A stretch of DNA of 64,000 nucleotides, taken from Halobellus clavatus (GTDB lineage Archaea; Halobacteriota; Halobacteria; Halobacteriales; Haloferacaceae). The position numbers were made by a program, and so were the translations under genes. The stretch is from the NCBI RefSeq assembly GCF_900107195.1, contig NZ_FNPB01000003.1, positions 124,001-188,000 of the forward strand, in the 5' to 3' direction. Shown here in pieces: positions 212 through 5,396 of the stretch. Within the stretch, counting starts at the first letter, position 1, and each line of letters opens with the position of its first letter. The notes under the pieces are model-generated. The model was not told the origin of the DNA and did no database searches. It saw nothing but the letters and a program-made list of their open reading frames with translations.

Positions 212-583
212 TTAGAGTGGGACGCCTCCGGCCCACGCGAGTGCGGTTCTGACACCCTGGACGATCAAGACGGCGCTGGCGACGCCGAGGACCAACTTGG
301 CGGCGGTCTTCTTGGTCCCGGAGATGCCCTGATTGACGAGGGCGTTGTAGACGCCGTTGACGCCGTGGAAGGTCGCCGTCAGCAGAAAGAGGATCATCAG
401 CGAGAAGTACGTGAGTTCCTGCATCCGCCCTTGGGACATCGCGAAGGTCACCTCGTCAGCGTGGTGGACGAAGTGCAGGAGGAAGAAGTGGAAGGCTAAC
501 ACGACCACGAGGAACGCGGCCGTGATGCGTTGCCAGAGCCACCGGCGGCCGCCGCGCTGGAACGAGGAGTATCGCTCGGCCAT
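212..583 (-). CDS. sdhD: Succinate dehydrogenase membrane anchor subunit
   Basis: A 123-residue protein with three hydrophobic segments (about residues 20-40, 60-78 and 95-118) and membrane histidines (FHFFLLHFVHH, TFHGVNG) of the kind that bind heme b or quinone in SdhC/D families. With SdhC it anchors succinate dehydrogenase (complex II, TCA cycle and respiration) in the membrane and reduces quinone. Its ATG overlaps the sdhC stop by one base (TGATG), so the two are translationally coupled, and sdhB follows after 5 nt. Assignment as the second anchor follows from length, topology and gene order. Confidence 0.9.
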   Translation of the reverse strand: MAERYSSFQRGGRRWLWQRITAAFLVVVLAFHFFLLHFVHHADEVTFAMSQGRMQELTYFSLMILFLLTATFHGVNGVYNALVNQGISGTKKTAAKLVLGVASAVLIVQGVRTALAWAGGVPL

Positions 584-978
584 CAGCCGAACACCCCCGC
601 GAGGAACGTCGGCACGCTCGCGATCACGATCGCGCCCGTCAGGAGCAGCGACGCGTAGAAGCTCTTATCCTGTGACTCGAGTCCGATGCCGAGATCGACG
701 AACAGCAGTCGAAGTCCGTTGAGGATGTGGAAGACGGCGACGGCGAGCAGGCCGACTTCCAAGAGCCGGACGACGAGGAGACTCTCCAGCGACTGGATCG
801 TCGTCGTGTACGCCTCCGGGCTCGTCAGCGCCGTCGACAGCACGGCGATGTGGGTGAAGAGATAGCCCACGAGCACCCAGCCCGTGAACTTGTGGAACAC
901 CCAGGCCCACATTCCAGCCGAGAACTCCCGCCAGCGGCCGAAGTCCTCGATGAGACCCCGATTGTAAGACTGACTCAT
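583..978 (-). CDS. sdhC: Succinate dehydrogenase cytochrome b subunit
   Basis: A 131-residue membrane protein with three transmembrane segments. The N-terminal block ([21 protein letters not shown]) followed by [17 protein letters not shown], and later [13 protein letters not shown], fits the SdhC family, whose histidines ligate heme b. It is the first gene of the minus-strand operon sdhC-sdhD-sdhB. The bases ahead of its start, around 1003-1013, contain a TATA-like stretch when read on the minus strand. It acts in the TCA cycle and electron transport as part of complex II. Confidence 0.9.
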
Positions 979-1099
979 ACTCCTCTGAATCTCTGGACGG
1001 ACCCACTATAGACCTTACGTGTACGGGTCAGTGTCCAGTGGAGATGTGGGCCGGAACGCGACGGTCTCGGGCGACGTCTGGTCCGGCGATCAGGGTGGG

Positions 1100-2140
1100 T
1101 TACGAGGTGGCCTCCGTCCCGGTATCGACCGACTGCTCGCGTTCGACGACCGCCTGCACGCGGGGTTCGAGCTCGACGAGGTGACACAGCGGGTTCCCCG
1201 GGTAGACGACGGGGTTCTCGAGCACACCGACGAGGAGGCCGGTGAAGGGGGCCTCGACCGCGATGTTGTCGCTCTTGAACGGATCGGTGAGCGTACAGAT
1301 CCGCTCGCCCCTCGTCACCAGCGACCCACGTTCGGCGTGCATGTCGACGATTCCCCCCGCATCCGCGCGGATCCACGTCTTCTCGTTCCCGTCGTCGATG
1401 ACGGTTCGCCACCCCGGCCACCGGACGGTCGCGTCCGCTCGGAGTCCGTACTCCGCGAAGACGCTCTCGACGCCGTCGAGCGCCTCGTCGATCAGGCCGC
1501 GCTGGAACCGGTGCGCCTCGCCCATCTCGATCGTCACGGTGGGAACGCCGACCGCGGCGGCCTCGGTCCGGAGCATCCCGCTCGACCCGTCGCTGTCGAT
1601 GATGACTTTCGAACCGAACGCCCGCGCCAGTCTCGCGACATCGTCGTCGGACATATCCGCACGGACGTGGAGCATATTCGTCCGCCCCCGGGTAGAGGTG
1701 TGGAAGTCCAGGCCGTAATCACAGGGCTCGATGAAGTTCTCGAAGATCCTCGCGGCCATCCGTTTGGCGCTGGTGGAGTCCTCCCGACCGGGGAACGAAC
1801 GGTTCAGATCCCGATCGTAGATGGGGAGGTACCGTTGCTGTGCCAGGAACCCCGGCACGTTCAGGATTGGCAGACAGACCAGCGTGCCCGCCAGGTCGGC
1901 GAGGTCCCACTCGTGGGCCACCTCGCGAACGACTTCGATTCCGTTGAGTTCGTCCCCGTGGGCGGCCGCCGAGAGGAATATCGTCGGGCCCGAGTGTTCG
2001 CCGTTGATGATCGTCACCGGGATTCGGACCGGGTCCCCCAGGTACGTCTCGCTGATCCCGTATCTGAGGTTCTGCCGTTCGCCCGGGAGGACCTTCCCGC
2101 CGTTGTACGTGAAGGTCCCGTCGCTGCTCATACGCGCCAT
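1100..2140 (-). CDS. AstE/aspartoacylase-like M14-family zinc hydrolase
   Basis: A 346-residue protein of the succinylglutamate desuccinylase/aspartoacylase family (M14-like carboxypeptidase fold). Visible zinc ligands are the HGDE motif (His61, Glu64) and the later His147 (DFHTS). DLNRSFPG (about 111-118) is the substrate-carboxylate-binding loop, and IEMGE (about 204-208) holds the likely catalytic glutamate. The C-terminal third (about 240-335) looks like the beta-rich lid domain. The family hydrolyses an amide between an acyl group and an amino acid; the substrate is unknown here. It diverges from a RimK-type ligase (start 2252), which suggests a make-and-break pair acting on an amide or glutamyl bond (inference). 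A second ATG at 2131 is an equally possible start. Confidence 0.85.
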   Translation of the reverse strand: MARMSSDGTFTYNGGKVLPGERQNLRYGISETYLGDPVRIPVTIINGEHSGPTIFLSAAAHGDELNGIEVVREVAHEWDLADLAGTLVCLPILNVPGFLAQQRYLPIYDRDLNRSFPGREDSTSAKRMAARIFENFIEPCDYGLDFHTSTRGRTNMLHVRADMSDDDVARLARAFGSKVIIDSDGSSGMLRTEAAAVGVPTVTIEMGEAHRFQRGLIDEALDGVESVFAEYGLRADATVRWPGWRTVIDDGNEKTWIRADAGGIVDMHAERGSLVTRGERICTLTDPFKSDNIAVEAPFTGLLVGVLENPVVYPGNPLCHLVELEPRVQAVVEREQSVDTGTEATS

Positions 2141-2251
2141 CGGACATCCGCCTTCTTAAACGCTCGTACCGCGCGGGACGCCGGCCGCCACGCCCGCGCC
2201 GACCGAGTGAGACCGGCACCTCTTTGCTCGCGTGGCAAGTTACGAGGGTGT

Positions 2252-3613
2252 ATGTCCGCCGCTACTGACGACGATCCGGTTCGCGTCGGGGTTCTCTCGC
2301 TCCACAACAGCAAGGAGACGAAGGCCATCCTCAACGCTGTCGACGACCTGGGACACGAGGGGATCTGGCTCCGACGGGAGAACACCGCGGTCTCGGTCGA
2401 AGACGGTGACGTCTCGATCGAACCCGAGGTCGACATCGTCGCCAACCGGCTCCTGCTCTCGAACACCGAGGAACCGGCCGAACTGCTGGGCCTGGCAACG
2501 ACGTTCGAGCGGATCCGCCCGATGCTGAACGAACCCGCCGCGGTACTCACTGCGGTCCACAAGTTCGCGACGGCCGCGACGCTCGCGAACTGGAACATCA
2601 AGGTACCCGACGCGCTGCTGGCCCTGTCGAACGATCGGCTGAACCAGGGCCGCGAACGGTTCGGTGACGTGGGCGTCTACAAGTCCGCGATCGGCACCCA
2701 CGGCGGGGGGACCTGGAAGGTCGATCTCACAGCGCCAGTGAACCCGAAGGTGGGTAACCGGCAGGCGTTCCTCCAGGACCTCATCGACCGCGACGACGAG
2801 AAACACCGGGATCTCCGGGTGTACGTCGTCGACGGGCAGGTCATCGGCGCGATGTATCGCTACGCGCCGGAGGGAGAGTGGCGAACCAACGTCGCGCTCG
2901 GCGGGGACGTTCTCGACGCGACCGGCGATATGCCGACGGAGGCGCGCGAGACCGCCCTCTACGCGGCTGAGGTGATGGGACTGGACTACGTCGGCGTCGA
3001 CCTCATCGAGGGTGAAGACGGCTGGTTCGTCCTCGAAGCCAATCCGACTGCCGGATTCCGGGGGCTCTACCGCGCGACCGGACAGAGCCCCGCCCCCTAC
3101 ATCGCGAAACTCGCGATCGAACAGGTCGGCGGCGCGGTCGACGACGACCGTGTCGAGGACCTGGCGACGGCCCTGGACGACTCCCGACCCGCGGGGATGC
3201 CGCGCGTCGACGCCGGGCCAGCGGGGGAACGGCCGACGATCGGATACATCGAGGAGGTCATCGTCTCGGGGACCAGCGGCTCGACGCAGGCGCTCGCGAA
3301 GTCCGACACCGGCGCGACACGGACGAGCATCGACACGTCGCTGGCGGCCGAAATCGGTGCGGGACCGATAAAGAGTATGACGCGCGTTCGCTCCGGGTCA
3401 GTGAAGTCGGGGAAGGCGCGGCCGGTCGTCGACCTGGTGATCGGAATCGGCGGGACGCAGCACACGGTGAAAGCGAGCGTCGAGGACCGCTCGCATATGG
3501 ACTATCCCCTCCTCCTCGGTCGCGACATCCTCCAGCACTATCAGGTCGACGTCACGCGACGGACCGACGAGCAGGCCGACGACGGCGACCGCGACGAACC
3601 GTATCTGGAGTGA
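2252..3613 (+). CDS. RimK-like ATP-grasp ligase fused to a retropepsin-like domain
   Basis: A 453-residue two-domain protein. Residues about 10-290 form a RimK/LysX-type ATP-grasp ligase: an N-terminal pre-ATP-grasp domain, a nucleotide-binding loop around YKSAIGTHGGG (143-153), and the metal-binding end YVGVDLIEG...FVLEANPTAGF (247-269). RimK-type ligases join an amino acid, often glutamate, to a carboxylate using ATP. Residues about 325-440 match the retropepsin-like ATP-dependent zinc protease family (RimB type): K-S-D-T-G-A at 350-355 carries the aspartic-protease-like DTG, and LLGRDIL (421-427) is the matching C-terminal motif. The reading frame is open far upstream, but the ATG at 2252 gives the family N-terminus and lies after the divergent gene. 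Substrate unknown. Confidence 0.85.
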   Translation: MSAATDDDPVRVGVLSLHNSKETKAILNAVDDLGHEGIWLRRENTAVSVEDGDVSIEPEVDIVANRLLLSNTEEPAELLGLATTFERIRPMLNEPAAVLTAVHKFATAATLANWNIKVPDALLALSNDRLNQGRERFGDVGVYKSAIGTHGGGTWKVDLTAPVNPKVGNRQAFLQDLIDRDDEKHRDLRVYVVDGQVIGAMYRYAPEGEWRTNVALGGDVLDATGDMPTEARETALYAAEVMGLDYVGVDLIEGEDGWFVLEANPTAGFRGLYRATGQSPAPYIAKLAIEQVGGAVDDDRVEDLATALDDSRPAGMPRVDAGPAGERPTIGYIEEVIVSGTSGSTQALAKSDTGATRTSIDTSLAAEIGAGPIKSMTRVRSGSVKSGKARPVVDLVIGIGGTQHTVKASVEDRSHMDYPLLLGRDILQHYQVDVTRRTDEQADDGDRDEPYLE

Positions 3614-3849: not shown

Positions 3850-4854
3850 ATGGCGAGCGAGCAGGCCGACGGACTGCCCGACGAACTCGACGCCTGGGTG
3901 GCGGAGCGAGCGGCTGCAACGGGCGATTCGCGGCCGGAAGTGCTCCGCCAACTGCTCGCAGCGCACCGACTGCTCGACGAGCATCCCGAACTCCTCGACG
4001 GCGACGGCTCGACCACTGTCGCCGTCGACGACACGATGGGACCGAAACGAGAGCGTTCGGAACCCAGCGAGTCGCTGGCAGCGGACCTCGACGACATCGA
4101 GTCCCGGCTCACGGCGCTGGAAGCCGACCTCGACGAGAAGATTACCGACGTCCGCGAGCGGGTGATCCAGGTCAAACGGGAAGCCGACGCGAAGGCACCG
4201 GCCGACCACGACCACCCCGAGATCAGTCGGCGGATGACCGAGGGCTTCGAGAACTACGAGGAGGTCCTGGCGTACCTCGCGGACCTCGGGGAGGACCACG
4301 AGGACAAACTGCGCCGACTGGCCGGGGCCGTCGTCGACCTTCGCGAGCGCGTCACTGAACTCGAACAGCGGTCGAACGAACGCGCTGCCGCCGCCGAGCT
4401 ACGGCGCGAAGCGAACCGACAGGGAATCACGTCTGCGGAGTGTGGCTCCTGCGGTTCTGCCGTCCAGATCGGGCTGCTCGACGGGCCGCGCTGTCCACAC
4501 TGTGAGGCGACGTTCGAAGAACTCGATCCCAAACGCGGATTCTTCGGCGCGAACACCCTGACCGTCGGACAGCGCCCGGCACTGGCCGCAGGCACCGAGC
4601 CGACCGACCGACCCTCCCCGTTCGAATCGACCGATGGAGATGGGTCGACCGGTACCGACGCGGCGGAGTCGAGCCCCGACGACACGGACGAGACCCTCGA
4701 AGACGCGACAGCGGACTCGACCGGCCCATTCACGTTCGAGCACCGCGCGGCTGGGAGCGACACCCCGGAGTCGGAGGCCACCGAGGAGCCTGACCAGGAG
4801 GAGCGTGACCGGGACGATGTGCCCGACGAAGAATCGGAGGTGACCGACCGATGA
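3850..4854 (+). CDS. Acidic coiled-coil protein with RHH-like N-terminus and zinc ribbon
   Basis: A 334-residue haloarchaeal protein without an assigned function. Residues 8-45 (LPDELDAWVAERAA...RPEVLRQLLAAHRLL) resemble a ribbon-helix-helix DNA-binding domain. Residues about 70-190 are rich in charged heptad-like helices, probably coiled coil. A zinc ribbon follows (Cys198, Cys201, Cys215, Cys218: CGSC...CPHC), then a very acidic, probably disordered tail of about 100 residues. The next gene starts inside its stop codon (ATGA overlap), so the two are co-translated. A TATA-like ATTCTTAAG lies near 3819-3827. A DNA- or nucleoid-associated role is possible but is inference only. Confidence 0.75.
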   Translation: MASEQADGLPDELDAWVAERAAATGDSRPEVLRQLLAAHRLLDEHPELLDGDGSTTVAVDDTMGPKRERSEPSESLAADLDDIESRLTALEADLDEKITDVRERVIQVKREADAKAPADHDHPEISRRMTEGFENYEEVLAYLADLGEDHEDKLRRLAGAVVDLRERVTELEQRSNERAAAAELRREANRQGITSAECGSCGSAVQIGLLDGPRCPHCEATFEELDPKRGFFGANTLTVGQRPALAAGTEPTDRPSPFESTDGDGSTGTDAAESSPDDTDETLEDATADSTGPFTFEHRAAGSDTPESEATEEPDQEERDRDDVPDEESEVTDR

Positions 4855-5396
4855 GCGACGATCCAACGGACTCGAACCCCGCGGGCGCGACCGACTCGGA
4901 CGATGGCGGCGACGCGTCGGAGAGCCGAGGCGTCGATGACGAACGACCCGAGGGTGCGGACGCGTCGGAGGCGGCCCCGCTCGCCGACTTGGCGCAACGC
5001 GTCTCGGACCGACACGACGCGCGAGCGGACGAGCAGGGGCCGGCGTCGGGGACCGATCTCGGGGACGACGAGCCGACGGCGGCCGCGGACGAGGATCCCT
5101 TCGAGGAGGTGTCCGTCGGCGATATCGACGAGGAGGAACTGTGGGCGTCGCTCGAAGAGCCTGCAGAGCCGACGGCCGCGGTCGGAGCGGAGGCGTCCGC
5201 CCGGACGGTCACACCGGAGACGGACCCCTCGGCGGACACGACCGAACACGTCGTCGACAAAACGGAGTACTGCCAGCGGTGTCCGCATCTCGACGACCCG
5301 CCGGAACTGGCGTGTACCCACGAGGGGACCGAGATCGTCGAAGTCACCGATTCCGATCACTTCAGAGTCCGGAACTGTCCGATAGTCGAGGAGTGA
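4851..5396 (+). CDS. Acidic protein with C-terminal CxxC zinc-binding domain
   Basis: A 181-residue protein, function not recognised. The first about 130 residues are highly acidic, low-complexity and probably disordered. The last 45 hold a compact cysteine motif (YCQRCPHL...LACTHEG...RNCPIVEE) that would bind one zinc ion with four cysteines. It overlaps the upstream zinc-ribbon gene by 4 nt (ATGA), and the two share the same build: acidic disordered region plus small zinc site. This suggests a partnership, but nothing in the sequence names the process. Confidence 0.75.
   Translation: MSDDPTDSNPAGATDSDDGGDASESRGVDDERPEGADASEAAPLADLAQRVSDRHDARADEQGPASGTDLGDDEPTAAADEDPFEEVSVGDIDEEELWASLEEPAEPTAAVGAEASARTVTPETDPSADTTEHVVDKTEYCQRCPHLDDPPELACTHEGTEIVEVTDSDHFRVRNCPIVEE

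Follow-up and report, generated by a model that had tools for sequence, protein, structure and literature searches.

The window analysed here is a stretch of 64,000 nucleotides (nt) from the haloarchaeon Halobellus clavatus (NCBI RefSeq assembly GCF_900107195.1, contig NZ_FNPB01000003.1, positions 124,001 to 188,000 of the forward strand). Near its beginning lies a divergent gene pair coding for a protein that joins a RimK-type ligase to a RimB-like retropepsin domain (hereafter FUS) and for a zinc hydrolase (hereafter HYD). The features of this pair are, in window positions:

1100-2140, minus strand: HYD, M14-clan zinc hydrolase of the AstE/AspA/DoeB type, 346 amino acids
2141-2251: intergenic region separating the divergent HYD and FUS, 111 base pairs (bp) between the start codons
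2212-2225, plus strand: ACCGGCACCTCTTT, a putative promoter element that lies some 40 to 27 nt 5' of the FUS start codon
2252-3613, plus strand: FUS, RimK-RimB (ligase-retropepsin) fusion protein, 453 amino acids, start ATG at 2252
2252-3142, plus strand: RimK-type ATP-grasp ligase part of FUS (pre-ATP-grasp and ATP-grasp), PF08443 core at about 2558-3082
3227-3562, plus strand: C-terminal retropepsin-like (RimB/RloA) domain of FUS
3299-3301, 3305-3307, 3419-3421 and 3488-3490: codons of retropepsin residues K350, catalytic D352, R390 and R413, respectively

Pfam profiles place the RimK ATP-grasp domain first (PF08443; 77.7 bits against a cut-off of 21, E = 1.2 × 10−21, amino acids ~103-277) and the RimB family at the C-terminus (PF05618; 38.7 bits against a cut-off of 27, with a match covering only the second half of the profile). 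Both domains lie in one unbroken frame of 433-538 amino acids in most loci of 60 of the 65 haloarchaeal genera surveyed, which confirms the claim of a preliminary description that one protein combines a RimK ligase with a retropepsin-like domain bearing DTG and LLGR motifs. Because this frame is so widely shared, we reject a sequencing or frame error, or a chance open reading frame (ORF), as the origin of FUS. The gene is single-copy in its own genome (threshold E ≤ 1 × 10−60). We also rejected an 864-amino-acid ORF (1019-3613) as the FUS frame, since it begins at a GTG and is overextended across HYD, and placed the start at the ATG at 2252, a choice supported by ACCGGCACCTCTTT, which keeps the same spacing to the FUS start in related genera. 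An element of the form CGGCA-N(3-6)-TTT at about −38 from the FUS ATG occurs in 19 of 73 upstream regions, compared with 0.16% of background windows (the loci are related), and is likely a promoter element of a leaderless transcript.

We surveyed 194 Halobacteria genomes from 65 genera, counting HYD as orthologous at E ≤ 1 × 10−90. PF05618 was found in 177 of them, nearly always in an open frame of at least 440 amino acids, and the RimB family also had a match in the control genome of Haloferax volcanii, a standard genetic host. A full-length FUS match was present in 176 genomes (60 of 65 genera) and an orthologous HYD in 179, whereas in a set of 295 genomes of the phylum the PF05618 matches outside Halobacteria lie in frames of about 100-305 amino acids, too short for a FUS-type fusion. 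The co-occurrence on which the link proposed in the preliminary description depends was found: 176 genomes carry both genes, three HYD only, none FUS only and 15 neither (Fisher P ~ 1 × 10−19, counted by genome with kinship ignored). The two genes are jointly absent in ten genera, and five of these (g1, g22, g35, g37 and g41) have other members that keep both, so that joint loss occurred at least five times. Two of the HYD-only genomes retain a FUS remnant beside an intact HYD (amino acids 402-435 in G184 and 5-72 in G110), while no FUS remnant was detected in the third (G168); G180 and G114 hold C-terminal FUS relics with HYD gone. Decay of FUS first, followed by later loss of HYD, would explain these discordant genomes. 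Decaying FUS copies were seen at loci L038, L106, L102, L103, L105 and L072, as extra copies with internal stops or as short N- or C-terminal relics.

Scored against subfamily models, the FUS ligase falls just under the TIGR00768 cut-off (135.6 against 143.4 bits). Its best NCBIfam equivalog score is to MptN (114 bits, cut-off 350), and the LysX_arch model gives 92 bits (cut-off 275.6). We reject LysX, MptN or CofF as its identity, as the scores lie under the cut-offs and LysX-like paralogues fall in a separate cluster. In the ligase tree, the ligase parts of the FUS proteins group in one clade (support 0.996), distinct from the haloarchaeal LysX-like paralogues and from bacterial RimK, to which the FUS ligase is ~25-33% identical; K1_L156, which was wrongly trimmed, is an artefact of this tree. 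These results bear on a LysX/ArgX-like role in amino-acid biosynthesis, in which a carrier protein would end in glutamate and HYD would release the product. Such a role can draw on the LysX_arch match and on the zinc deacylases of LysX/ArgX-type pathways, which do a similar job, but the score is far under its cut-off, the haloarchaeal RimK/LysX-like paralogues sit in clades apart from FUS and such pathways are not known to contain a retropepsin; we regard it as very improbable.

At the residue level, K144, R66, R189, R211, N213, D250, E262 and N264 are invariant in 71 of 71 fusions, and S16 and S70 are each retained in 67. Characterised RimK contacts glutamate through R64, R189, N262, S68, S7, R8 and S14 (PMC10092738). 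By alignment, R64, R189 and N262 correspond to FUS R66, R189 and N264 (71/71), and S68 and S7 to S70 and S16; five of the seven contacts thus have a conserved counterpart.

In the retropepsin part, the DTG motif reads K350-S-D352-T-G354-A355, LLGR occupies residues 421-424, and K350, D352, G354, A355, R390 and R413 are invariant in all 71 fusions. In RloA, K46, R114 and R137 hold poly-glutamate around the catalytic D48, all four being needed for cleavage, and the R114A or R137A mutations have the strongest effect (PMC12239564). RloA K46, D48, R114 and R137 align with FUS K350, D352, R390 and R413, and the K-x-D and R-23-R spacings are identical in the two proteins; the match between arginines is drawn from alignment and spacing and not from a solved structure. 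The same Lys, Asp and two Arg residues are near-invariant in bacterial RimB too. An AlphaFold2 model of the C-terminal domain, folded alone with bacterial RimB sequences as input, reached a predicted local distance difference test (pLDDT) value of 82.7, with a low or disordered flap region. Its top PDB matches were RloA2, RloA and the DUF785 protein Lpg0085, Ddi1 and retroviral proteases ranking next, with template modelling (TM) scores of 0.57-0.64 for the first six; the flaps are unresolved, likewise in those crystals. Separately, haloarchaeal plasmid proteins (H41, H42; L118) match the FUS retropepsin domain only, at 36-38% identity, and the one inspected (L118:3998-4315, Natribaculum luteum plasmid) is a short stand-alone retropepsin-domain protein.

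HYD matches the Pfam family AstE_AspA_cat (PF24827; 166 bits, E = 9 × 10−49), and its zinc site H61-x-x-E64 with H147, together with the catalytic E205, is kept in 70 of 70 haloarchaeal sequences, so the divergent AstE-type M14 neighbour with HxxE and His zinc sites is as first described. Its nearest named relative is DoeB (TIGR02994; 101.2 bits, cut-off 402.7), ahead of aspartoacylase (PRK02259; 34.7 bits, cut-off 180) and AstE (TIGR03242; 25.6 bits, cut-off 305.7); with all scores far under the cut-offs, HYD was rejected as AstE, AspA or DoeB. It is 31-38% identical over its full length to the hydrolases of bacterial rim loci, and its signature (R103, R110-D-L-N-R, R153-x-N155, R160, E208, R211-F and W256-x-R258) is common to all 12 module-type hydrolases compared from bacteria, with L in place of F212 in one of them. 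Most of this signature is missing from the haloarchaeal paralogues L228 and L229. The many arginines of HYD would suit an acidic substrate. The HYD model (pLDDT 90.5) best matches DoeB (TM 0.77-0.83) and then other AstE/AspA proteins, with the cyanophycin dipeptide hydrolase CphZ at 0.73 and the tubulin deglutamylase CCP5 weaker at ~0.47. DoeB/EutE, an N-acetyl-diaminobutyrate deacetylase, thus provides the closest solved structures, but by pairwise alignment it is without the R153/N155/R160 motif. Two cation:proton antiporters and two TrkA_C proteins surround a lone HYD copy carried by a Natrinema versiforme plasmid (L119:494-8759).

On the other side of HYD lie two conserved neighbours:

583-978, minus strand: sdhC-like succinate dehydrogenase membrane subunit, downstream of HYD
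212-583, minus strand: sdhD-like succinate dehydrogenase subunit

HYD and FUS are divergent in 60 of the 61 haloarchaeal loci with both genes, separated by 80-265 bp in 43 and by 1.0-3.5 kilobases in 18. The wider gaps belong mostly to family f4 and hold inserted genes, a GNAT acetyltransferase and a polysaccharide-flippase-like protein, which we judge unrelated. SdhC and then sdhD follow HYD in most loci (sdhC in 53/80). Extra, diverged FUS copies (40-47% identity) at L038, L046, L106 and L107 are each divergent to their own HYD (68-71%) and located away from the sdh genes, and therefore the pairing survives relocation. The FUS copies of L038 and L106 carry stop codons, and other second FUS copies have no HYD in the locus. 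No conserved substrate genes were found beside the haloarchaeal pair, where the only genes seen are those for sdh subunits and, downstream, acyl-CoA/hydroxyacyl-CoA dehydrogenases and further housekeeping functions. Two acidic proteins downstream of FUS (window 3850-4854 and 4851-5396) adjoin it only in its own genus among the loci examined; the first begins with a weak ribbon-helix-helix and also contains a coiled coil and a zinc-ribbon-like pair of CxxC motifs. The relatives of the window are haloarchaeal at the class level, with top plasmid matches to Halolamina and Haladaptatus.

This gene order invites two other explanations. HYD and FUS could be merely conserved neighbours, kept together by descent and without functional link; adjacency alone could reflect inertia because the sdh-HYD-FUS order is old and common to most families. 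The loss of both genes together in at least five genera, the lack of any surveyed genome with FUS alone, diverged extra copies that stay paired and the same partners in other orders in bacteria (below) leave this explanation with almost no credibility. Alternatively, FUS could be a poly-glutamate ligase-protease whose product HYD leaves alone, HYD instead deacylating a feedback metabolite or regulating glutamate supply, the pair being co-regulated with succinate dehydrogenase in the balance of glutamate and 2-oxoglutarate. The position of the pair, locked upstream of sdhC in those 53 loci, agrees with this, yet the four diverged pairs keep both parts away from the sdh genes, and the same hydrolase subfamily is found with rimK and rimB elsewhere, among bacteria as well as in the archaeal family f12, so we consider it improbable.

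Adjacent, co-directional genes for rimB, rimK and a HYD-type hydrolase, several overlapping by a few bases, occur on plasmid records of Salinivibrio, Phaeobacter, Vibrio and Acaryochloris. We further scanned GTDB genomes with hydrolases from rim loci as queries; the best 80 loci by similarity to one query, not a random sample, held both rimK and rimB in 55 cases, rimK only in seven, rimB only in two and, within the stretch examined, neither in 16. Represented among them are Cyanobacteria, Planctomycetes, Proteobacteria, Actinobacteria, Chloroflexi, Nitrospirae, Armatimonadetes and others. Eleven of the loci, most from Actinobacteria (L154, L159, L163, L169, L173, L180, L190, L201, L205, L209 and L211), have rimK transcribed away from rimB and the hydrolase, and a divergent layout therefore arose more than once. 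Within the archaea, family f12 (L120-L128) has rimB-rimK in nine loci and the hydrolase in eight of the nine. We take f12 to be probably Methanosarcinaceae, because the family occurs in M. acetivorans, one of the control genomes, and its rim genes were probably acquired from bacteria, given that f12 rimK is 72-77% identical to Salinivibrio rimK. The bS6 profile (PF01250) gave no match in 13 archaeal genomes, eight of them f12, whereas 10 bacterial controls matched; this agrees with the earlier statement that archaea lack bacterial S6 and confirms that S6 cannot be the target there, and it follows that a bacterial-type RimK is kept in f12 even where no bS6 is found.

The surroundings of the bacterial modules differ from those in haloarchaea. 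Among 202 ORFs (two genes either side of 59 modules, called by a simple longest-ORF rule; loci L140-L219), CorA was the commonest family with 10 proteins, followed by MgtE and MscS with six each. At about one CorA copy per genome (12 of these genomes), ~0.06 neighbours would be expected, giving a binomial P of ~1 × 10−15 that is overstated by kinship. In addition, bacterial RimK proteins of a second type have a TrkA_C (RCK_C) domain at their C-terminus, detected in 5/5 scanned (E from 1 × 10−6 to 5 × 10−11):

L159, 4082-5290, minus strand: TrkA_C-bearing RimK
L209, 4167-5375, minus strand: TrkA_C-bearing RimK
L177, 6972-8168, plus strand: TrkA_C-bearing RimK
L175, 6951-8189, plus strand: TrkA_C-bearing RimK
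L200, 9054-10259, minus strand: TrkA_C-bearing RimK

This domain suggests that glutamate ligation may be controlled by a potassium-related or nucleotide ligand, and, because of the CorA/MgtE/MscS neighbours and the TrkA_C-ending RimK, ion or osmotic homeostasis is the likeliest setting of the bacterial rim modules. Ion-channel neighbours of the bacterial type are almost absent from haloarchaeal loci (MscS in 1/82), so the ion link is documented for bacteria only.

These bacterial neighbours and the TrkA_C domain would also fit an osmolyte or ion role within a small-molecule pathway. Here FUS would attach a single glutamate, or just a few, to a coenzyme or compatible solute in the manner of MptN and CofF, HYD would be a recycling deacylase, as DoeB is for N-acetyl-diaminobutyrate, and the retropepsin part would be structural or regulatory. 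MptN as the best FUS equivalog, far under its cut-off though it is, and DoeB as the closest HYD structure point in this direction. However, an endoprotease domain with an invariant Asp and poly-glutamate-binding Lys and Arg residues would be useless in one-step ligation, RloA cuts only long glutamate runs (PMC12239564) and RimB cuts poly-glutamate (PMC11957791). We therefore rate the small-molecule pathway as unlikely, though it deserves more weight than the other alternatives.

Several published systems resemble the pair in part. The Pseudomonas RimABK system (PMC4741518, PMC10092738, PMC11957791) likewise combines a RimK-type ATP-grasp ligase with a RimB retropepsin and conserved poly-glutamate contacts, but as separate proteins instead of the single chain of FUS and with the M14 hydrolase outside the published system; moreover, the haloarchaea tested are without bS6 and the FUS ligase clade is far diverged. 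RimB not only cuts poly-glutamate but stimulates its synthesis by RimK, and a bacterial RimBK hybrid has protease activity (PMC11957791). The Desulfotalea psychrophila hybrid DP2392 likewise combines both domains in a single chain, with RimB N-terminal, whereas FUS has RimK N-terminal and RimB C-terminal; the survey of such hybrids took in no archaea (PMC11957791). The interpretation in the preliminary description is thus supported with the qualification that bacterial RimB-RimK hybrids, of opposite domain order, were already published. That opposite order and the separate ligase clade suggest that the haloarchaeal FUS arose by a fusion independent of the bacterial RimBK. Pseudomonas RloABC also pairs a retropepsin with an ATP-grasp protein and supplies the best fold matches of the FUS C-terminal domain (9g59, 9g58), but RloA is a secreted protein whose partner is a membrane transglutaminase-like protein, and the system has no M14 hydrolase (PMC12239564). 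The bacterial and f12 sets have all three parts and the same hydrolase signature as the haloarchaeal pair, although mostly as three separate co-directional genes with the hydrolase usually last, and the f12 rimK, unlike FUS, is close to that of Salinivibrio. In eukaryotes, TTLL glutamylases and CCP deglutamylases likewise set an ATP-grasp ligase against an M14-clan carboxypeptidase, but from separate genes, with tubulin as target and no retropepsin. The cyanophycin cycle consists of the synthetase CphA, the endopeptidase CphB and the dipeptide hydrolase CphZ. It resembles the pair in having an ATP-grasp polymerase, an endopeptidase and an M14-fold dipeptide hydrolase that matches the HYD fold, but the polymer and the endopeptidase are different, and we offer it as an analogy without any claim of membership.

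In the open literature searched (subscription papers lay outside its scope), we found no paper naming an M14 hydrolase as a Rim partner and none joining rimK with succinylglutamate desuccinylase; papers joining RimK with aspartoacylase mostly concern, by title and abstract, vertebrate metabolism. A study of ATP-grasp amidoligases by Iyer and colleagues in 2009 reportedly discussed peptidase genes in the neighbourhood of RimK, and the hydrolase link may already have been noted there. The individual parts and the bacterial RimB-RimK fusion are already known, whereas the reverse-order archaeal fusion, its strict pairing with HYD and the hydrolase as a third bacterial Rim component are new relative to this literature, and the widespread bacterial rimB-rimK-hydrolase set is apparently undescribed.

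Taken together, we favour, with some confidence, the reading that FUS and HYD are the haloarchaeal form of a Rim module that makes, cuts and clears poly-alpha-glutamate. The RimK part would use ATP to join glutamates, the presumed monomer, by alpha-peptide bonds into chains, built either free or on the C-terminus of some acceptor. Retropepsins work as dimers, and the fused domain would pair with a second copy to cut these chains internally. HYD would then clear short glutamyl stubs or released oligo-glutamates bond by bond, a presumed sequence of steps with a parallel in the cyanophycin enzymes (synthetase, cyanophycinase and CphZ). The initial supposition, that one locus codes for synthesis, trimming and removal alike, gains support from the bacterial three-gene set and the conserved poly-glutamate-binding residues, the catalytic roles, above all the substrate of HYD, being presumed. 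We are less sure that HYD acts on the FUS product as the last step, which seems plausible but somewhat short of an even case. Several observations count against the module as proposed. The published bacterial RimBK failed to glutamylate the S6 tested (PMC11957791). The MptN and LysX models give the FUS ligase higher scores than the E. coli RimK model does, all under the equivalog cut-offs. The ligase also forms a distinct clade outside bacterial RimK, and in FUS the RimK contacts R8 and S14 are replaced by L17 and E22. The closest HYD structures act on small N-acyl amino acids, lone diverged HYD copies occur in haloarchaea, and 16 of the 80 bacterial hydrolase loci have neither rimK nor rimB in the stretch examined, some of them at contig ends.

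RimK is known mainly as a modifier of bacterial ribosomal protein S6. The near-universal haloarchaeal FUS would be a version of Rim in genomes where no S6 was found, and since Rim genes occur without detectable S6 in both haloarchaea and f12, S6 modification cannot be the sole purpose of the system. A HYD-type hydrolase would be its third component. More tentatively, we envisage an S6-independent, reversible poly-glutamate system with a dedicated Rim-linked M14 deglutamylase in archaea and many bacteria, which may be tied to ion or osmotic state and which haloarchaea may have fused independently, in reverse order.

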